From a candidate division LCP-89 bacterium (GTDB lineage Bacteria; Electryoneota; B3-LCP): DNA of 64,000 nt. Where the stretch lies: the NCBI GenBank assembly GCA_025774555.1, contig JALGVT010000001.1, forward strand, positions 1 through 64,000, in the 5' to 3' direction. The notes beneath the pieces were generated by a model. It searched no databases and had not been told where the DNA came from. It was given only the letters and a program-made list of their open reading frames with translations. Shown in pieces: positions 53,055 to 64,000 of this stretch; position 1 is the stretch's first letter, and every line of letters starts with the position of its first letter. The translations under genes and the position numbers were made by a program.

Positions 53055-54686
53055 ATGAATCTACGCTCAAGGATAATTGCAGTTTTATTAACTGTGTCAC
53101 TTCTCCCCATCCTGTTGATGGGTATAAGCGCCTGGTTCGTCTTCGGACAGCTATTAGAGCGCAAATCTTTAGAACTGCAGAATACTGTATTAAAAAGCCA
53201 TGCTGACGCCATTGAATCCTATCTCGCGAAACATCTGAATTCACTCCAACTTTTAGCCAGCACACAGGAACTAAAACAGATCGCAGAGCAGAATACACTA
53301 AATGAAGTATTTACAAGCCTGAACGAGAGCAGCCGTAGCGCTTTCGAGGATCTGGGAGTTATCAGCGCGGATGGAAATCATTTAGCGTATGTCGGGCAGT
53401 ACGATCTAATGGGGAAGAATTACCGGGAAGCAGACTGGTTCAAGCAGGTGATGTTGGAAGGAACCTATATCAGTGATGTATTCTTAGGTTTCCGGAAGGC
53501 TCCCCATTGCATCATCGCAGTTAAAACAACAGACGGAAATCAACCCTGGATACTGCGCGGGACAATCAACAGCAAACAGTTCGATGATCTCGTCTCCACA
53601 GGCGCTTTAGGAGAAACCGGCGATGTTTTCATCGTCAACCGCGAGGGTATTTATCAGACGACGTCCAGATCGGGAATAGTGCTGGAAACATCCGCATTTA
53701 CTGATTCGCACAGCTTTCAAGGCGTACAAGACCGCAAGGTGCAAGTCAATAGCGTTGAGAAAATACAGGTAACTACCTGGATCAAGCATGATAACTGGCT
53801 TTTAGTGGCAGAGCAGGATGCCGCCGAAGTGCGAGCCCCTGTCAACCGGGCTATTGCGAAGGGAGCCTTGATTGTCCTTATCGCCGTTATTTTAATCGTG
53901 GTGACCACTTTTCTGGCAACCAGACACCTGACTAACCTGGTCGATAAGGCAAATGCCCAGCGTGAAGAAATCTTCAGAGCCTTCACACGCTCGGCAAAAC
54001 TCGCTTCTGTAGGCGAACTCGCAACCGGATTAGCTCATGAGATCAATAACCCCTTAGCCATCATCAGCGCAGACCAGACGAACATCAGCGATATAGTTTT
54101 AGAGATGCCTGAAGCCGGCGAAGATCGAATTGAACTGCTCGAATCGGTCAAACGAATTAAACGCCAGGTAGAGCGATGCAGAACTATCACGACCAAGATG
54201 CTCCAATTCGGGCGGAAGAGTGACAGTCAATTAGTGTTGACGAACGCCGCTGTCGCCTTGCGTGAAATAGGCTCACTTCTGGAGCGGCAGGCAAAAGTGC
54301 GCAACGTTGAATTGATTCCGGATATAGAAGAAAATCTTCCTGACGTCATGATCGATCCGCTGGAACTTGAACAGGTTTTGGTCAATCTGATAAACAACTC
54401 ATTGCAGGCTCTTCCGGAGGGGGGAACGGTGCGTATCGTCGGAAAACAAGTAGGCGATGAAGTGTTGATTGAGGTGATAGATACCGGAAACGGCATTCGT
54501 CCAAAAGATCTCCAACGGATTTTCGAGCCGTTCTTTACCACCAAGCCGGTCGGCGAAGGAACAGGTCTGGGCTTGTCCGTCTGTTATGGAATAGTGAAAT
54601 CCTGGGGTGGAATAATTGAAGCGGAAAGCGAAGTCGGGAAAGGAACAACCATGCGTATAAAAATTCCGCTGTCAAACGATTCGTAA
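53055..54686 (+). CDS. membrane sensor histidine kinase with dCache-like domain
   Basis: TM-periplasmic-TM; SVGELATGLAHEINNPLAIISADQ; GTGLGLSVCYGIVKSWGG. Confidence 0.93.
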   Translation: MNLRSRIIAVLLTVSLLPILLMGISAWFVFGQLLERKSLELQNTVLKSHADAIESYLAKHLNSLQLLASTQELKQIAEQNTLNEVFTSLNESSRSAFEDLGVISADGNHLAYVGQYDLMGKNYREADWFKQVMLEGTYISDVFLGFRKAPHCIIAVKTTDGNQPWILRGTINSKQFDDLVSTGALGETGDVFIVNREGIYQTTSRSGIVLETSAFTDSHSFQGVQDRKVQVNSVEKIQVTTWIKHDNWLLVAEQDAAEVRAPVNRAIAKGALIVLIAVILIVVTTFLATRHLTNLVDKANAQREEIFRAFTRSAKLASVGELATGLAHEINNPLAIISADQTNISDIVLEMPEAGEDRIELLESVKRIKRQVERCRTITTKMLQFGRKSDSQLVLTNAAVALREIGSLLERQAKVRNVELIPDIEENLPDVMIDPLELEQVLVNLINNSLQALPEGGTVRIVGKQVGDEVLIEVIDTGNGIRPKDLQRIFEPFFTTKPVGEGTGLGLSVCYGIVKSWGGIIEAESEVGKGTTMRIKIPLSNDS

Positions 54687-54718
54687 AAAAAGTGAAACTA
54701 AAATATCTGAGGTAAAAA

Positions 54719-55552
54719 ATGGCTGATGAAGGTGAAAAAATCAGACTCCTCCTGGTGGATGATGAGGAAGAGTTTCTCACCTCCGCCGCAACCGCTCTAA
54801 AGCGCAGAGGCATAGAGGTGCAAACTGCCTGTGATGGTGAAAGCGCGCTGAAAATCATAGAACAAGATATTTTCGACGTTGTCGTCCTGGATTTGAAGAT
54901 GCCCGGAATCGACGGGACTGAAGTTGCCCGACGTATCCGAGAAAAACGCTATGATCTGCCGGTTATCATACTTACCGGACATGGCACCATCTCCCACGCT
55001 TTTGAAGTTGTGAAAGAGAGCGTGTGCGATTATCTGGCGAAACCCTGCGACATGGACGTTCTGGTTAACAAAATAAGAGAAGTGGTAAAAGCTAATACGG
55101 CGGAGAAAAAGACAGAGAATGCCGGGACGATCAACGTTTTAATCGTGGACGATGAAGAGGAACTGCTCGTGTCCCTGAAAACAGTGCTGGAGCGCCGTGG
55201 CACAACCGTCACAACAGCTAAGAGTGGCAAAGAGGCGCTTTCATTGCTTGGAACGTTGGACACAGAGGTAGTGATACTGGACGTAAAAATGCCGGATATG
55301 GACGGTCTCGAAGTGCTGGAAGCGATCAAGCGAGATCATCCTCTGCTGGAGGTTGTCCTCTTAACAGGACACCCGGATGTGGATAATGCTCTGCGCGGCA
55401 TCAAGATGGGGGCTTGTGCTTATTTAGTTAAACCTCCAGAAATTGAGGATCTGGTAGAAACGATTCGGAAAGCCTTTGATCTCCGCCAGGCAAAGCTGCA
55501 GCGGCAGCAGCAGCAAACTGTCCAGGACATCTTAAAAAAATACCCGGACTGA
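54719..55552 (+). CDS. tandem receiver-domain protein (REC-REC), no output domain
   Basis: LLLVDDEEEF..VVLDLKMPGIDG..ILTGHG..AKP and VLIVDDEEEL..VILDVKMPDMDG..LLTGHP..VKPP. Confidence 0.93.
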   Translation: MADEGEKIRLLLVDDEEEFLTSAATALKRRGIEVQTACDGESALKIIEQDIFDVVVLDLKMPGIDGTEVARRIREKRYDLPVIILTGHGTISHAFEVVKESVCDYLAKPCDMDVLVNKIREVVKANTAEKKTENAGTINVLIVDDEEELLVSLKTVLERRGTTVTTAKSGKEALSLLGTLDTEVVILDVKMPDMDGLEVLEAIKRDHPLLEVVLLTGHPDVDNALRGIKMGACAYLVKPPEIEDLVETIRKAFDLRQAKLQRQQQQTVQDILKKYPD

Positions 55553-55621
55553 GATATTTCTCGTCAATCATTAAGAATCTACAACCACTGATATACCCAC
55601 AACCAGGCGCTGGAGGTCTGT

Positions 55622-57466
55622 ATGGATAATACTCCGAAAGCAAAAAGCTCTGCCTACGATAAGTACATTAATTACAAGCGATTCTCTATCGCAGTCACTG
55701 CGTTTGTCGTCCTTCTGCTTATCCCTATCCCCAACAGCATGCTGGACGTCGCTGTGGAATACACGATGGGCGAGACTTACCTGCTGGATTTCTATACGAA
55801 GGAACTCTTCGATACTCCCATAGACGATGCCGAGCAGTGGCAGGCGCTGACCGCACGCGCCCTGGAAGGGTGCATGCGCCAGGGCGCGCTCGACAAAGCG
55901 AGTGTTGTAAGACGAAGCATGAAGCAGTTGAAGTCGATGGGTGTTGAGACCTCAGAGATACTCTACGGACGGTATCATACATTTATAGAGGGTCTCGATG
56001 AGGCATACGTAAACGATATGATGAAGCGCTCCCATGCCATGCGCCACGACAAATTATCATACCAGATGCTGAGCGAATCACAGCAGAAAGACGTTGACCA
56101 CTCAGCAAGAAACATCCGCATCTGCGTTGCCATGGTGGCGTTCGTGGTGATCTGTTTTGTCACGGAAGCGATGCCGCTGCCGGGAGTGGCTTTTTGTATC
56201 GGGTTAATCCTGGTGTTCTCAGGAATAGTTTCGCGCCGGGAGGTCGCCTCCCTTTTCTGGTCTGACGCCTGCTGGTTCATTATGGGCAGTCTGATGTTCG
56301 CCGCGGCATTCGTTAAGACGGGAGTCGATAAGCGTATATGTCTGCTGATTTTCAGGTCGCTGGCTAAGCCAAGCGTCGGATTCATTACCCTTATTCTAAT
56401 TGCAGTCATAGCGCCCAGCGCATCGTTCATATCCGATCATGCTCTCGCGGCTATTTTCCTGCCTATCGCCATGATTCTGTACAATAACAGTCTCGGAGCA
56501 CATGGGGAAGACACTGAGCTGGCAAAAATGCTCATGATTACCATAGCCATGGCATGCAATATCGGAGGCTTCGGCTCCCCTTCCGGCGGAGCGCGGAACG
56601 TGATCATGATGACCTATATGGAGGATATGTTCGGTATTACCATGGGTTATGGACAATGGATTGTCTATGGATTGCCCTTCGTCCTGATCATGATTCCCAT
56701 CCTATGGCTGGTAATCAACTGGCGTTTTAAACCGAAAATTCGAGATCTGCGCCCGGCGCTGGTTACGTTGAAAGAAGATATCGGTAGAATGGGCGGCTGG
56801 AATCGCAAGCAGATAATCGCGGTGATAATTTTCCTGGTCATGCTCTTCGGCTGGATCACAGAAAAGAATCTGCTGCTCAATCTGTTCGGTGTACGTCTCG
56901 GTATAGGCGTTATTGCAGTAGCCGGAGCGATGGCTTACCTCCTTACCGGCGTAGTCAATTGGCGCGATTATCAGGAGAAGGTTGATTGGGGAGTTGTCTG
57001 GCTCTATGCCGGCGCAATTATCTTCGGTCGCATCCTGGATCAGACCGGAACAGCCTATTGGATGGCTCGTTCAATAGTCGATGGTTTAGCCGGGATCGGA
57101 TTTGACTCGGGTCCAGCGCTATTGGGAGCGGGCACAGCGGTTACGGTTGGTTTGACGAATTTGATGGCTGACGGTCCTGCCGCCGCATCCGTGGGACCTA
57201 TTACGCTGAACATGGCGGCAGTGTCAAACCCCGGAACAACCCTGATACCTTTCATGGGTCTTGCCACAGCCTGCGCTTCTTCCTTTGCCTACCTGTTGGT
57301 GATCGGCACACCACCGAATGCTATCGTCTATTCCAGCGGTTATCTCGAAGCAAAGGATTTTCTGCGTGTCGGTGTTATTATGGCAATAATCGCGTTTGCT
57401 GTATTGTTATTACTCAGTATGTTCTACTGGCCCCTTATCGGTTTCGAGGGAATGCCTTCAGCCTGA
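55622..57466 (+). CDS. SLC13/DASS-like transporter with about 120-aa extracytoplasmic insertion
   Basis: Multi-TM; MACNIGGFGSPSGGARNVI, VIGTPPNAIVYSSGY; SNT-equivalents read SDH and ADG. Confidence 0.88.
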   Translation: MDNTPKAKSSAYDKYINYKRFSIAVTAFVVLLLIPIPNSMLDVAVEYTMGETYLLDFYTKELFDTPIDDAEQWQALTARALEGCMRQGALDKASVVRRSMKQLKSMGVETSEILYGRYHTFIEGLDEAYVNDMMKRSHAMRHDKLSYQMLSESQQKDVDHSARNIRICVAMVAFVVICFVTEAMPLPGVAFCIGLILVFSGIVSRREVASLFWSDACWFIMGSLMFAAAFVKTGVDKRICLLIFRSLAKPSVGFITLILIAVIAPSASFISDHALAAIFLPIAMILYNNSLGAHGEDTELAKMLMITIAMACNIGGFGSPSGGARNVIMMTYMEDMFGITMGYGQWIVYGLPFVLIMIPILWLVINWRFKPKIRDLRPALVTLKEDIGRMGGWNRKQIIAVIIFLVMLFGWITEKNLLLNLFGVRLGIGVIAVAGAMAYLLTGVVNWRDYQEKVDWGVVWLYAGAIIFGRILDQTGTAYWMARSIVDGLAGIGFDSGPALLGAGTAVTVGLTNLMADGPAAASVGPITLNMAAVSNPGTTLIPFMGLATACASSFAYLLVIGTPPNAIVYSSGYLEAKDFLRVGVIMAIIAFAVLLLLSMFYWPLIGFEGMPSA

Positions 57467-57493
57467 ATCCCGCTCGTAAAATAGGAGTTAATA

Positions 57494-58399
57494 ATGAATG
57501 ATAAACACGATAAACAAAACGTTCTGCTGGTCGATGACGAGGAGGATTTCCGAATCGCCACCCAAAAAGCGCTTACGAAGAGGGGTTTTAGGGTCGGCGT
57601 AGCCGCAGGCGGCGAAGAGGCAATTAAATCAATCAGCCAGAACCCGCCCGACATTGTCCTCCTCGACTTGAAGATGCCGGGATTAAACGGCATTGAAACG
57701 CTGCAGAAGATACGCGAAATTGAAAAATCTCTGCCGGTTATTATATTGACCGGTCATGGCAGCATACATGATGCCATAGCCGGCATCAATCTCGAGATCG
57801 TAGATTTCATCCAGAAACCGGTAGATATCGAACTCCTGGTTGTAAGGATGCGCAGGTTTTTTGTGGAAGGCAAAGCGGATACCCTGCGTGAACGCGCTAT
57901 TTCCGAACTGATGGTGTTGCCAGATTTATATCCCAGACTCTATATCGATGAACCGATCAGCACGGCAATGGAGAAGGTTAAAAGCGCTTTCTTTCCTCAT
58001 GAATCAGGAGTTATCCAATCACCCAAAATACGATCGGCGCTGGTTTATAGCCGGGATGAATCCTTCTTAGGGCTGGTACGCTTTCAAGATCTGCTCAAAT
58101 TGGTATTGCCGGACTTCCTCGAAGATTCACCTTACAGTTCCTTCTTTACCGGTATGTTTTTAGCGCAGTGCAAAACGATTTCACAAAAGAGCGTGAAGGA
58201 ACTTTTAGGTAAGCTTGTCTATGTCAACTTTGAGGCGCCGCTGATGGAAGCAGTGCATCAAATGGCTAAACATAATCTGGTAACGCTGCCCGTCATGAAA
58301 GAAGGAAAACTCGTCGGTGTTCTGCGCGAGAGAGACATCATCCTCGAAATCGCTAAAAACTTCGCCACATTTGACGTTCAGCAACTCAGCGAATGGTAA
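57494..58399 (+). CDS. receiver-CBS pair protein
   Basis: VLLVDDEEDF..VLLDLKMPGLNG..ILTGHG..QKP; C-term LMEAVHQMAKHNLVTLPVMKEGKLVGVLRERDII. Confidence 0.88.
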   Translation: MNDKHDKQNVLLVDDEEDFRIATQKALTKRGFRVGVAAGGEEAIKSISQNPPDIVLLDLKMPGLNGIETLQKIREIEKSLPVIILTGHGSIHDAIAGINLEIVDFIQKPVDIELLVVRMRRFFVEGKADTLRERAISELMVLPDLYPRLYIDEPISTAMEKVKSAFFPHESGVIQSPKIRSALVYSRDESFLGLVRFQDLLKLVLPDFLEDSPYSSFFTGMFLAQCKTISQKSVKELLGKLVYVNFEAPLMEAVHQMAKHNLVTLPVMKEGKLVGVLRERDIILEIAKNFATFDVQQLSEW

Positions 58400-58422
58400 A
58401 TATAAAACAAAAAAGGAGAACT

Positions 58423-59046
58423 ATGATAATGCAAAAAGCTGCCAATATCACCTGGCATGAAAGCCATGTCGAACGCGTAGTGAGAACCAGACTTCTGGGG
58501 CAGGAAGGCTGCACTATTTGGTTCACAGGATTACCTTCTTCGGGGAAAAGCACGACTGCATTCACCCTCGAACACGAACTTATCAAGAGGGGCTATCTGG
58601 CTTATGTGCTTGATGGAGATAATATCAGGCACGGCTTGAACAAAAATCTGGGCTTTTCAGCAGAAGATCGGGAAGAAAACATCCGCAGAATCGGTGAAAC
58701 TGCCAGGCTTTTCGCGGATGCAGGGCTGATTACCATGACCAGTTTTATCTCTCCCTATAGAGAGGATCGCAACCGAGCCCGTGAACTGCATAAAAAAGAT
58801 GGGTTGAGGTTTATCGAAATCTACGTTGAAACTCCGGTGGAAATATGCGAAAAACGAGATCCCAAAGGGCTATATCAAAAGGCAAGAAGAGGTGCGATAA
58901 AAGGATTTACCGGCGTTGACGATCCCTATGAAGCGCCGCTGAACCCAGAAATGATTATTAAAACAGGCGATAATTCTGCTGAAAAGATAGCCGCGGATAT
59001 TCTCGATTACTTGGTATCTCATAAAATCCTGTCGGAGTCTGAATAA
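58423..59046 (+). CDS. cysC: adenylylsulfate (APS) kinase
   Basis: IWFTGLPSSGKSTTAFTLEHEL, LDGDNIRHGLNKNLGFSAEDREENIRRIGE, TSFISPYREDRNRAR, IKGFTGVDDPYEAP. Confidence 0.95.
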   Translation: MIMQKAANITWHESHVERVVRTRLLGQEGCTIWFTGLPSSGKSTTAFTLEHELIKRGYLAYVLDGDNIRHGLNKNLGFSAEDREENIRRIGETARLFADAGLITMTSFISPYREDRNRARELHKKDGLRFIEIYVETPVEICEKRDPKGLYQKARRGAIKGFTGVDDPYEAPLNPEMIIKTGDNSAEKIAADILDYLVSHKILSESE

Positions 59047-59120
59047 GGGTGACACTATAACTTTCGTCAAAATAATCACATAGTAGAAGCAAAACACTGC
59101 GCATTTAGAAAGTGGAGCAA

Positions 59121-60458
59121 ATGAACTACCGAAGATTACTATCCATGATTGTAGCATTGACTATTCTGTCAACTATGGCTTCAGCAAAGATTAAAATCGC
59201 TGAAGGCATCAATCTGGACGCCGAATTCAGACCCAGATTTGAGCTGGATAACCGCGACTTCAATAATGCAACAGGTTACGATGCTTACAGCACCTACAGA
59301 ACCCGAATAGGTCTGGAACTCGATGGGCTCATAGAAAAAACAGTTCTGTATATCAAGATCGGCGATTCCCGCACTATGGGCTACGGAGACCCTTATCTTA
59401 TCGGCAATCCTGTGGGTCCAAATCGATTTGATAATAATCTGGGGGTGATTGAAGCATTTATCGAAGTTCACGATGTTATCACCCCCGGTTTTTACCTCAA
59501 GACTGGCAGGATGTCCAACAACCAGGGGCGCTTCCGCCTGTTCGGGTCGGGGAATTGGAATTTCTTCGGCCCCAGAACTTATGACGGCATCAAGATAGGA
59601 TACATCGAAGACGCCTTTTCTTTAAATATGTGGCATTTCTTCGGAGCGAATGGCGACCGACACTGGTACTCGCTGCCGGATGATCCAGCAAAGTATCCTG
59701 ACCCGGATGAAGATTACAAGCGCGACCACACTTTGACAGGGATAGATCTCACTTTGCTGAGCGGCAAGATCAATCTGTTGACATACCTTGACCTTGATCA
59801 GGAACCGGTAGTGGATACGCTGAATAACACGAGTAATGTCGCTGTCAGCCGCATGACAACCGCCTTATACGCTCACGAGAACCTGGGCAGCCAACAGCAG
59901 CATCGCTTTGATCTGGATCTGGCGTATCAATTCGGTACCATGGGACACACTGCCGGGCAGGCGGATATCAGCGCATATCTCCTTGCAGGCGACTGGTCAT
60001 GGCGATTTGAAGAGTGTCTGAAATCGTGGATCGGTTTGGGATTTCATATTCTCAGTGGCGACGATGGTGAAGACCCGGGTAAAGTGAATTACTTCTATGA
60101 TAAATACTGCTCCAAACACCGGGTGCTCGGATATATGGATTACTTCAAGAGTGATACCGGCGTTAAGTCACTTGGAATCAGGGATTTGATCTTGCGGGGA
60201 GGATTCAGCCCTGCAAAGGGGCTGAAGTGTCAGATGGACGCTCACTATTTTGCTGTTGAAAAAGCCTTCTCTTCGTCAGTCGATGGGTCTGACGCGGATG
60301 TTCTGGGGCAGGAGCTGGACATAACGATCAAGTATGCCATTCGTAAAGGGCTGCAGTGCCAGTTAGGCTTAAACCTCTTTCTCCCTACCGAGGATTGGCA
60401 GGGCTCGGAAACAGACACAGCAACACTCTGTTACCTCATCTTAACTGCAAAGATTTAA
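59121..60458 (+). CDS. outer-membrane beta-barrel porin-like protein
   Basis: Signal peptide; RTRIGLELDGLIEKTVLYIKIGDSR; alternating beta pattern. Confidence 0.75.
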   Translation: MNYRRLLSMIVALTILSTMASAKIKIAEGINLDAEFRPRFELDNRDFNNATGYDAYSTYRTRIGLELDGLIEKTVLYIKIGDSRTMGYGDPYLIGNPVGPNRFDNNLGVIEAFIEVHDVITPGFYLKTGRMSNNQGRFRLFGSGNWNFFGPRTYDGIKIGYIEDAFSLNMWHFFGANGDRHWYSLPDDPAKYPDPDEDYKRDHTLTGIDLTLLSGKINLLTYLDLDQEPVVDTLNNTSNVAVSRMTTALYAHENLGSQQQHRFDLDLAYQFGTMGHTAGQADISAYLLAGDWSWRFEECLKSWIGLGFHILSGDDGEDPGKVNYFYDKYCSKHRVLGYMDYFKSDTGVKSLGIRDLILRGGFSPAKGLKCQMDAHYFAVEKAFSSSVDGSDADVLGQELDITIKYAIRKGLQCQLGLNLFLPTEDWQGSETDTATLCYLILTAKI

Positions 60459-60599
60459 ATATGCCTGAATCGAATTTGTAAAATTATATTGTTTTTAAGG
60501 AAAATTCGATTTACATTACGATTGACAAAGCTATTCCTGGTAATTCCCATCATTCCGGTACAAATATTTGAGACTCTAATCAAGTTCCAATAAAAACAG

Positions 60600-62288
60600 A
60601 TGGCAGAAGAAAAAATTAAGCACTCACCCGATACGGGCAGCACCATTCTCCGGGATTCGTACTACCGGGAGCTTATCAAGAGGAACTTTCTCAGATTGGC
60701 GCTGACCTATCTCGCGCCCCTTATTATTCTCATCGTCTATTTCCATTTCCAATATCGGGAATTCCACGAACACAGCCGCCACACTCACCTGCAGGCAATT
60801 GCTGAATATCAAGCAAATACTTTAGATCTTTTCCTGCGTGAACGCATCGTCAACCTGCGGAACCTCATTGACGATCCGCAATTCCAGGCGCCTCCCTCAA
60901 AACCGGCTATGCAACATTATCTGGAAAGGCTTCAGAAAAGCAGCGATACGTTTGTCGATGTTGGCTTTTTCGATTCAACGGGGATTCAGAGAGGATATGC
61001 GGGGCATCTTGACTACCTCGAAGATCAGGATTACAGTGAAGAATCCTGGTTTATCGATCTCAAGGATGATAAGAGCGATTTTATTATAACGGATATCTAT
61101 TTGGGATTTCGACAAAAACCGCATTTCACCATCGGGATCAACCGTATTATTGAAGGTCAATACATCGTCTTGCGAGCCACTTTAGATCCGGAGAAGTTCT
61201 ATGAATATATCATCTCCCATGAAAAAACCAAAGAGGTTAAAATATCAATAGTGAATCAGGAGGGATATTACCAGATCGTTACTGCCCATGAAGGGACGCC
61301 CTCAGGGGATTCATCAATTATTCCGCCGCGAAATCAGAAGATCGGCATCGATAAAGTAGTCCTGGGTAACAATAAAATCGAATATGCGTATGCCTGGCTG
61401 CTTACTGCTGATTGGGCTGTCATTGTGGAATGGGTGGAACAGGGGATACCTCTTCCGGTCTTTGGAACGCAATTCGGTTTAACTGCCTTCTCTTTCGCCA
61501 TTATTCTGCTGCTTTTAGCTATTATTATCATAAGAACAAAAAAGATCGTGGAATTCCAAATCGAAAGGGAAACCACCAAAGCCCAATTTGAACATGCCGC
61601 CAAGTTGGCGTCGGTCGGTGAATTATCCGCCGGCGTCGCTCACGAGATCAATAATCCTCTCGCCGTCATCAGCACTGAAGTGGGATTGATTAAGGACATG
61701 ATGGATCCGGAACTGGGTGGATCATACGAGTTGGATGATATTGTGCCCCATCTGATCAGCATCGATGAAGAGGTTTTCAGATGCCGTGATATCACCCGCA
61801 AATTGATGAGCTTCGTCAGGAAAACAGAGATCAAATTGATGCCGCATAGCGTCAACGTCCTGATCGATGAGATCACTGACGCGTTCTGGAAACAGGAAAT
61901 CGCCGTGTCCAACATTGAAATTGAGAAAAACTATCAGGATAATATCCCGGAGATCGTCACCGACGCCAATCAGATGAAACAGATATTCCTGAACATTCTG
62001 ACCAATGCATTCGATGCCATCACACCGCCGGGCAAAGTTACGATCACAACTTCATCTGACCATGAAGGACATATATCTATAGCTTTTTCTGACACAGGCA
62101 AGGGGATTACTCCACAAGAGATGGATCAAATTTTTATGCCGTTTTTCACCACCAAAGAAGTTGGCAAAGGAACTGGTTTGGGACTCTCGGTCAGTTACAG
62201 TATTGTCAGGAGTCTGGGTGGCAAAATAACAGTGGAGAGCATCCTGGGAAAAGGCAGCGTTTTTACGGTAGTGTTACCCGTCAGGTAA
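60600..62288 (+). CDS. membrane sensor histidine kinase with dCache-like domain, paralogue of 53055-54686
   Basis: SVGELSAGVAHEINNPLAVISTE; GTGLGLSVSYSIVRSLGG; sensor segment IITDIYLGFRQKPHFTIGI parallels YISDVFLGFRKAPHCIIAV. Confidence 0.93.
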   Translation: MAEEKIKHSPDTGSTILRDSYYRELIKRNFLRLALTYLAPLIILIVYFHFQYREFHEHSRHTHLQAIAEYQANTLDLFLRERIVNLRNLIDDPQFQAPPSKPAMQHYLERLQKSSDTFVDVGFFDSTGIQRGYAGHLDYLEDQDYSEESWFIDLKDDKSDFIITDIYLGFRQKPHFTIGINRIIEGQYIVLRATLDPEKFYEYIISHEKTKEVKISIVNQEGYYQIVTAHEGTPSGDSSIIPPRNQKIGIDKVVLGNNKIEYAYAWLLTADWAVIVEWVEQGIPLPVFGTQFGLTAFSFAIILLLLAIIIIRTKKIVEFQIERETTKAQFEHAAKLASVGELSAGVAHEINNPLAVISTEVGLIKDMMDPELGGSYELDDIVPHLISIDEEVFRCRDITRKLMSFVRKTEIKLMPHSVNVLIDEITDAFWKQEIAVSNIEIEKNYQDNIPEIVTDANQMKQIFLNILTNAFDAITPPGKVTITTSSDHEGHISIAFSDTGKGITPQEMDQIFMPFFTTKEVGKGTGLGLSVSYSIVRSLGGKITVESILGKGSVFTVVLPVR

Positions 62289-62349
62289 CCGCTATTGTGA
62301 AATATTGTAGTTGATTGTATAATCACTTAGAAAGTGAGTTCTGGAAATT

Positions 62350-62922
62350 ATGAACAAGAATTCAGAAGCAAAATGGGTGAAGGACGTAATGCTCCCCTTG
62401 GATGACTACGCCGTTGTTCCTGAAGATGCGTCTATGATCGATGCTTATATAGCTCTCGAGGAAGCTCAAGAAAGATTGCCAACCGGTCGCCAGCCCAGCC
62501 GCGCGGTTCTAATCGCCGACAAAGATGGTAAAATCATCGGGAAAGTAGGACAGCTCGCGTTTCTAAAAGCACTGGAACCCAAGTATAATGAAATGGGAGA
62601 TCTAAGCGCATTGTCCCGCGTTGGCTTGAGCACCGATTTCATCAGCACCATGATGGACAACATGAGCCTGTGGAAAGAGAATTTCTTCGATGTTGGTCAG
62701 CGCGCTAGGAACACTAAAATTGCAGAAATTATGCATCCTGTGACCGAAAGCATCGATGAGAACGCCCATTTGAGCGAAGCTGTCCATCGAATCGTCATGT
62801 ACCAGACATTATCACTGCTGGTAACCAGAGATAAGCAGATTGTGGGCATCCTGCGTCTCACCGATCTCTTCAATGAAATCGGTCAACAGTTGAAGTCCTC
62901 TGCCAATAGCGATCCTGAATAA
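62350..62922 (+). CDS. CBS-pair protein
   Basis: VKDVMLPLDDYAVVPEDASMIDAYIALEEAQ...IAEIMHPVTESIDENAHLSEAVHRIVMYQTLSLLVTRDKQIVGILRLTDLF. Confidence 0.85.
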   Translation: MNKNSEAKWVKDVMLPLDDYAVVPEDASMIDAYIALEEAQERLPTGRQPSRAVLIADKDGKIIGKVGQLAFLKALEPKYNEMGDLSALSRVGLSTDFISTMMDNMSLWKENFFDVGQRARNTKIAEIMHPVTESIDENAHLSEAVHRIVMYQTLSLLVTRDKQIVGILRLTDLFNEIGQQLKSSANSDPE

Positions 62923-62942: not shown

Positions 62943-64000
62943 ATGCCTATTATCCTATTAGTCGATGACGAAGATAAATTCCGCACTTCCACGTCGAAGC
63001 GGCTGAAGATGCGGGGATATGAGAATATCACTCTGCCCAGCGGCGAAGACGTCTTAAAAACTATCCGCAAATATGACGATATTGACGTCGTTATCCTGGA
63101 TAGAAAAATGCCGGGGATGACCGGCGAGCAGGTTCTCAAGGAGATAAAGCAGTTTCGACCGGAACTGCAAATCATTATGCTTACAGGTTATGCAAGCATG
63201 GAATCTGCTGTCGAAAGCGGTAAGCTGGATGCCTACTCCTATCTGGAAAAGCCGATTGAAATAGACCGTTTGATCGAAGCTATTGAGGAAGCCCGTAGAG
63301 ATAAGCCCATTGTAATGGAGAAACATGAAATCCCGCAGATCGAAAAGGGATCGCTGAGGAAGTGGCTTATCGGTTCTCATAATTATAGACCAGGCATTAT
63401 TATCCTCGGATTCTTGATATTTGCAGGTTTAGTATTGATGCCCACGCCGGATAAACTGACACACCTGTTATCCTTTGAAAAGAAAGAGAAGATTACCCAT
63501 CCCGAATCCGGCGCCGACGTAATTGATCCTACGGATGAAATCTTCGGCTATGTCGGTCATAAGAAGATGGCAACCGGTGAAACCATTGCTGAGTATTACG
63601 GCAGAGCTTACCAATTAGAAAAGACGGAAATCAGCGCATCGGGAGAAAAAGTCAAACATCCTATGACGACCGAGGATGCCGCTTTTCGAGCGAAAGTAAT
63701 GCTGGGGGTACTAGCTGTGTGCGCCCTGTTCTGGGCGTCGGGAGCGATCCCTATTGGGATCACTGCGCTGCTGGTGGGCGTCTTTATGTATTTAGCGGGA
63801 GTCATGAATCCTAACGATGTGGCTCAAGCTTATGCTAAAGACGCGGTAATCTTTATTTTCGGCGTGCTGGTTATCGCTCATGCCATCAGTAAAACCGGAT
63901 TGGACCGCAGGATAGGGCTGCTTCTATTGGGCCCATCTAATTCACTATGGAAATTGATGTTTATATTCCTCCCAATGGTTGGAGTTACCTGCGCATTTCT
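62943..64000 (+). CDS. receiver domain fused to SLC13/DASS-like membrane transporter (3' truncated by window)
   Basis: Own translation, open to window end: MPIILLVDDEDKFRTSTSKRLKMRGYENITLPSGEDVLKTIRKYDDIDVVILDRKMPGMTGEQ...IIMLTGYAS...YLEKPIEIDRL...RPGIIILGFLIFAGLVLMPTP...AKVMLGVLAVCALFWASGAIPIGITALLVGVFMYLAGVMNP...DAVIFIFGVLVIAHAISKTGLDRRIGLLLLG. Confidence 0.9.
   Translation, partial: MPIILLVDDEDKFRTSTSKRLKMRGYENITLPSGEDVLKTIRKYDDIDVVILDRKMPGMTGEQVLKEIKQFRPELQIIMLTGYASMESAVESGKLDAYSYLEKPIEIDRLIEAIEEARRDKPIVMEKHEIPQIEKGSLRKWLIGSHNYRPGIIILGFLIFAGLVLMPTPDKLTHLLSFEKKEKITHPESGADVIDPTDEIFGYVGHKKMATGETIAEYYGRAYQLEKTEISASGEKVKHPMTTEDAAFRAKVMLGVLAVCALFWASGAIPIGITALLVGVFMYLAGVMNPNDVAQAYAKDAVIFIFGVLVIAHAISKTGLDRRIGLLLLGPSNSLWKLMFIFLPMVGVTCAF

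Follow-up and report, generated by a model that had tools for sequence, protein, structure and literature searches.

A gene at the end of a 64,000-nucleotide stretch of DNA from a candidate division LCP-89 bacterium (contig JALGVT010000001.1, positions 1 to 64,000; hereafter the window) encodes a response-regulator receiver (REC) domain fused to a transporter of the DASS/SLC13 fold. The fusion is real, conserved, and widespread, and it is probably functional. On balance, we favor the reading that the protein is a sulfate importer of divergent DASS fold that a phosphorelay controls directly, via the built-in receiver and a dCache kinase encoded upstream. Two-component outputs are mostly DNA-binding or enzymatic; if this reading is true, transporters would be added to the known outputs. 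Dissimilatory sulfate reduction, a major marine-sediment process, begins with sulfate uptake, and what is available on the regulation of this step so far is mainly expression data and speculation. A receiver borne by the importer would offer a direct, testable control point, at which an outside signal could raise or lower uptake directly with gene expression unchanged.

RESULTS

The fusion is a single, complete gene

The fusion gene occupies positions 62943 to 64000 of the window on the forward strand (residues 1 to 352), and its frame runs from the ATG at 62943 past the window end to a stop codon at contig positions 65010 to 65012, giving a protein of 689 residues. The initial annotation had described this frame as uninterrupted up to the window end and had called for the downstream sequence; the contig confirmed and extended the frame, and the rest of the gene completes a DASS/SLC13-fold transporter after the receiver. 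Pfam domains in the protein were restricted to REC and Na_sulph_symp/CitMHS, with Response_reg matched at residues 4 to 115 (E = 3e-24; 85.7 bits, cut-off 30.2) and Na_sulph_symp (PF00939) at residues 250 to 680 (E = 1e-37; 130 bits, cut-off 27). An AlphaFold2 model built with 65 sequences as input (mean pLDDT 88, pTM 0.81) displayed a receiver fold at the N terminus together with a transporter fold. Altogether, Pfam, the model, and Foldseek recovered the order originally read from the window, i.e., receiver, transmembrane (TM) helix, polar segment, and SLC13-like TM part. A membrane part outside the SLC13 family, one of two doubts raised beforehand, was rejected, as Pfam and Foldseek both matched SLC13/DASS.

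The other doubt concerned a frameshift or assembly error between the receiver and TM parts. Among 85,488 species genomes scanned, 221 stretches encoding relatives were identified, of which the best 80 were retained. Because receiver and transporter lie in one frame in 80/80 of these best loci, all from an independent genome collection, an assembly frameshift or chimera was excluded; the same holds for 14 relatives in the window's phylum (sampled as 38 relatives plus the window's genome), where full-length homologues share 51 to 82% identity and align without gaps over the receiver-TM1 junction. The architecture proposed for the search across genomes, REC plus Na_sulph_symp/CitMHS, is thereby found well beyond the window: the best 80 loci of 221 represent about ten named phyla, with labels, some of them doubtful for MAGs, that include Zixiibacteriota, Electryoneota, Calditrichota, Kapabacteria, Fibrobacterota, Gemmatimonadota, Acidobacteriota, Planctomycetota, Myxococcota, Thermodesulfobacteriota, and Hydrogenedentota. 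Many carriers are uncultured, and most are sulfate-respiring bacteria; contigs of Tariuqbacter and Hatepunaea, relatives of the window, are filed under Candidatus Electryoneota, which points to that phylum for the window as well. Separately, the fusion gene of one locus (L056; G030:C565) is in two frames, with a break near residue 310 that reflects a frameshift or an assembly error. Three features formed no part of the initial annotation: the replacement of canonical transporter motifs described below, the likely sulfate cargo, and the wide occurrence.

The receiver is intact and conserved

The receiver domain (62952 to 63287; residues 4 to 115) was identified by Pfam and by Foldseek matches to 3crn and 3jte. 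It carries the acidic pair D8/D9, the phospho-acceptor D53 (63099 to 63101) within VVILDRKMPG, T81 in LTGYAS, and K103 in EKP, so that the complete receiver claimed at the outset is upheld by profile, alignment, and fold. D8, D53, T81, and K103 are kept in 81/81 sequences, including all of the best 80 loci of 221, and D9 in 80/81. The protein thus has the receiver fold, acidic pocket, aspartate acceptor, threonine/serine, and lysine of a response regulator, and a histidine kinase, HK2 (60600 to 62288), is encoded close by. A degenerate receiver was rejected, the catalytic residues being intact everywhere but in genome G018.

In that genome, the fusion (L169:238-2307; G018:C15) bears D53A, and its receiver is fast-evolving, with a branch of 1.82 changes per column (median end branch, 0.24), compared to 0.55 for its transporter branch. 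No kinase, CBS, or receiver gene was seen on its 19.4-kb contig, where a nearby kinase could be missed because the contig stops 237 bp beyond the fusion gene. The pattern fits a receiver that is maintained only where it is used.

In a receiver tree, the receivers of the fusions form one clade (support 100/100), separate from the clade of stand-alone receivers encoded downstream; derivation of the fused receiver as a recent duplicate of the downstream one was therefore rejected.

The transporter belongs to a divergent DASS branch

The DASS/SLC13 core begins at 63675, with residues 245 to 352 inside the window (63675 to 64000) and the remainder, up to residue 689, on the contig, as delimited by Pfam (Na_sulph_symp, CitMHS), alignment to VcINDY, and Foldseek. 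Its closest solved structures are SLC13/DASS proteins, e.g., NaCT (target TM-score 0.82) and VcINDY (0.79), with NaS1 and Pho90 also matched; family profile and fold thus agree on DASS/SLC13 membership. The score against TIGR00785 (dass), 186.2 bits, falls below its cut-off of 198.6, and the two SNT motifs expected at the hairpin tips are replaced by SEH (residues 354 to 356) and SDG (residues 591 to 593), both encoded beyond the window, which align onto the SNT motifs of VcINDY and are present in 81/81 sequences. For these two reasons, we file the transporter, on its sequence, as a divergent DASS-fold branch rather than a canonical Na+/dicarboxylate DASS protein. In VcINDY, both SNT motifs take part in binding substrate and Na+ (PMC9098524), and since both are replaced here, cargo and coupling ion could differ from those of VcINDY; the acidic residues at both hairpin tips might point to proton coupling. 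The fused transporters form one clade (support 94/95).

A conserved linker joins the receiver to TM1

Between receiver and core lie a linker (63291 to 63389; residues 117 to 149) of near-constant length with the pattern HEIP..EK.SL..WL.G..N.R, TM1 (63390 to 63443; residues 150 to 167, placed by a model helix at 150 to 165 and by sequence), and a polar loop (63444 to 63674; residues 168 to 244) that is probably extracytoplasmic. The receiver is predicted to sit in the cytoplasm, given its nature and the DASS topology. Mean conservation of the linker (0.655) matches that of the receiver (0.677). Among the fused proteins, E129 and W141 are each conserved at 99%, and G144, R149, and the adjacent P150 at 100%; relatives that lack the receiver have no WLxG part. 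Conservation at the level of the receiver, with a WLxG part specific to the fusion, suggests a structured coupling element rather than a loose tether. M125, a possible internal start for a REC-less form, is conserved in only 68%.

The linker bears on whether the receiver acts on the transport cycle at all. Receivers commonly work through phosphorylation-dependent dimerization, and the fused receiver could instead set the amount or placement of the transporter by dimerization, clustering, or regulated proteolysis, to which the dimeric state of DASS proteins (PMC9098524) would lend itself. However, the near-constant length and conserved WLxG of the linker suggest mechanical coupling to TM1, and we regard control of amount or placement as quite improbable.

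A dCache kinase is co-inherited with the fusion

HK2 (562 residues; dCache, HisKA, and HATPase_c by Pfam) is encoded on the forward strand upstream of the fusion, followed on the same strand by a CBS-domain protein (62350 to 62922; 190 residues, Pfam CBS at 124 to 177). A stand-alone receiver of 162 residues is encoded downstream of the fusion at contig positions 65083 to 65571. In 70/80 loci (the best 80 of 221), an HK2 homologue is encoded no more than 1.5 kb upstream of the fusion, either directly adjacent or separated by about 600 nt, a distance that would fit a CBS gene, and the phosphorylatable H348 is invariant among these homologues. HK2-type kinases form a clade of their own (100/100) relative to HK1 types and kinases near REC-less transporters, and groupings within it echo those of the fused receivers and fused transporters. 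HK2 is likely the cognate kinase of the fused receiver. Invariant residues of its sensor include R171, H175, and R192, which would be compatible with an anionic ligand. A CBS gene was found upstream of the fusion in 37/61 testable loci, and a stand-alone receiver downstream in 67/75. In two loci (L049 and L050; G014 and G031), two tandem CBS-protein genes separate kinase from fusion.

Some carboxylate sensor kinases are tuned by transporters, and the transporter here might likewise be a co-sensor: the fused receiver would dock on HK2 and accept phosphate from it, and control would run in reverse, the state of the transporter (substrate bound, transporting) tuning HK2 signaling to the other receivers. 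The stand-alone receiver that follows the fusion in most loci would then be the true output, and SLC5/STAC kinases are a precedent for joining transporter domains to two-component proteins (PMC9100948). Against this, in three loci (L101, L104, and L105), the receiver adjoining HK2 is that of the fusion and the next gene encodes another kinase; in addition, the receiver genes of the window's cluster, which comprise REC-REC, REC-CBS, REC alone, and REC-SLC13, encode no DNA-binding domain detectable by Pfam and thus no DNA-binding output. We consider the co-sensor role unlikely.

Relatives that lack the receiver serve as natural controls for direct control of the transporter by its receiver. In a sample of 298 genomes from the phylum to which a Desulfobacula carrier belongs, few candidates were scored per genome and counts are therefore lower bounds: the full fusion occurs in at least 2/298 genomes (the center genome G089 and G297), and a REC-less relative with 42 to 45% identity and both SEH and SDG in at least 6/298. 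Several of the six REC-less loci have separate receiver and kinase genes alongside; in one (G250), the genes run CBS, receiver, transporter, kinase, receiver, and 18 bp separate the end of the first receiver from the transporter gene. Hence, REC-less forms of the transporter occur, and the position of the fused domain can be taken by a receiver gene. Membership of the G250 upstream receiver in the fused-receiver clade was not supported by the receiver tree, so this split arrangement is positional evidence only.

Sulfate is the probable cargo

Within the window's phylum, 15/16 fusion genomes have dsrA versus 5/23 genomes without the fusion (Fisher p 1e-5, shared ancestry ignored), and 15/16 versus 6/23 have sat (no phylogenetic correction). 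Among another 47 fusion genomes, mostly of other phyla, dsrA was above the cut-off in 39 and missing at that cut-off in 8, which may reflect MAG gaps or other cargo. In individual genomes, dsrA lies about 10 kb (G003) or 27 kb (G005), and sat about 10 kb (G001), from the fusion. Because the fusion co-occurs with dsrA both inside the window's phylum and elsewhere, sulfate is the probable cargo and would feed dissimilatory sulfate reduction; this is the simplest reading.

A different anion, such as sulfite, thiosulfate, dicarboxylate, or phosphate, would leave receiver control unchanged and could be accommodated by the replacement of SNT by SEH and SDG and by the fusion genomes that lack dsrA. 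The strong association with dsrA and sat speaks against it, as do a paralogous transporter (55622 to 57466) near an APS-kinase gene in the window, with its homologue near a sat-APS-kinase fusion in G009, and the treatment of DASS proteins of such clusters, abundant in proteomes, as sulfate importers (PMC11887813). We therefore doubt that sulfate is the wrong cargo.

The surroundings of the paralogue held further observations. This second DASS-type transporter carries a long insertion behind TM1, has SDH/ADG where SNT would be expected, keeps its position between REC-REC and REC-CBS genes, and is 77 to 78% identical in G014 and G015. The REC-CBS response regulator (57494 to 58399) stays beside it in relatives at 57 to 59% identity, and a stand-alone APS kinase gene (58393 to 59046) adjoins the transporter cluster; in G009 (L057), the kinase homologue is fused to ATP sulfurylase. 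In another SLC13/CBS/kinase cluster (G000:C83), L013:5354-6568 encodes a Cytidylate_kin2-like domain with a C-terminal receiver, with a homologue in G005 (L047), and L013:8677-9396, between two receiver genes, encodes a 239-residue protein that has no Pfam match and resembles a degenerate kinase core.

DISCUSSION

What the sequences establish is the architecture, the conservation of the catalytic residues, the co-inheritance of the kinase, and the association with dsr genes. The initial proposal that the transporter is itself the output of a phosphorelay is upheld as far as architecture, conservation, the co-inherited kinase, and REC-less relatives beside receiver genes go, whereas phosphotransfer, gating of transport, and the direction of control are what we infer, together with the cargo and the kinase ligand. 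In the mechanism that we propose, HK2 would sense an extracytoplasmic signal via its dCache domain, perhaps sulfate itself or a different anion, and phosphorylate D53 of the receiver at the cytoplasmic N terminus of the importer. The conserved linker of 33 residues would relay the resulting change to TM1, a helix expected in the scaffold/dimer part of the DASS fold, and the transport rate would go up or down. The CBS protein and the downstream single-domain receiver probably provide further regulatory inputs, the former of adenylate status and the latter by phosphate sharing or competition. We more tentatively suggest that the fusions are a widespread class of response regulators with a secondary transporter as output, in which a sensor kinase would phosphorylate a sulfate importer and switch import within seconds, and in which the invariant E355 and D592 at the hairpin tips may make transport proton- rather than Na+-coupled.

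The nearest published counterpart is a DASS cluster of Desulfobacteraceae with two-component and CBS genes (Dvar_38230-Dvar_38430), whose transporters are abundant and constitutive; in that 2025 study, transcriptional control by WalR-type regulators was proposed and the role of the CBS proteins speculated on (PMC11887813). The window's cluster (53055 to 62922, continuing on the contig to 65571) shares with it DASS transporters, dCache kinases, response regulators, CBS proteins, and a link to sulfate uptake, whereas its receivers include no WalR-type DNA-binding regulators. Here, in contrast, the transporter itself is a response regulator, and the arrangement is spread over about ten phyla; the words "receiver," "fusion," and "fused" do not occur in the main text of that study. 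A 2018 survey defined DASS group Cii as putative sulfate importers of sulfate reducers, with members of up to 691 residues (PMC5840216), which would be compatible in length with a receiver fusion, given fused open reading frames of 691 residues in L101, L104, L110, and L114; this likeness is one of length, and the part of the group Cii account available to us mentions no extra domain. We found no report of a receiver-transporter or SLC13-receiver fusion in the literature searched, most subscription papers and supplements lying outside it.

Compared to VcINDY, NaS1, and NaCT (TIGR00785, PF00939), the fusion has the same fold and family match and differs in SEH/SDG rather than SNT, the N-terminal receiver, the linker, and a loop of about 75 residues after TM1. 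SLC5-STAC kinases (CbrA, CrbS, RpuS) likewise combine a transporter-type membrane domain with a two-component module (PMC9100948), but there a kinase is joined via STAC and the transporter is on the input side, while here a receiver is joined and the transporter is on the output side; Pfam found neither STAC nor a fused kinase in the fusion protein. Yeast Pho90/Pho91 (SPX-DASS; PDB 8r33 was among the structures matched) are also DASS transporters with an N-terminal cytosolic regulatory domain, which limits transport (PMC12653687), but they are eukaryotic, carry phosphate, and have SPX, for which Pfam gave no match in the fusion, instead of a receiver. The fusion thus joins two groups, the DASS transporters with regulatory domains and the response regulators with unusual outputs.
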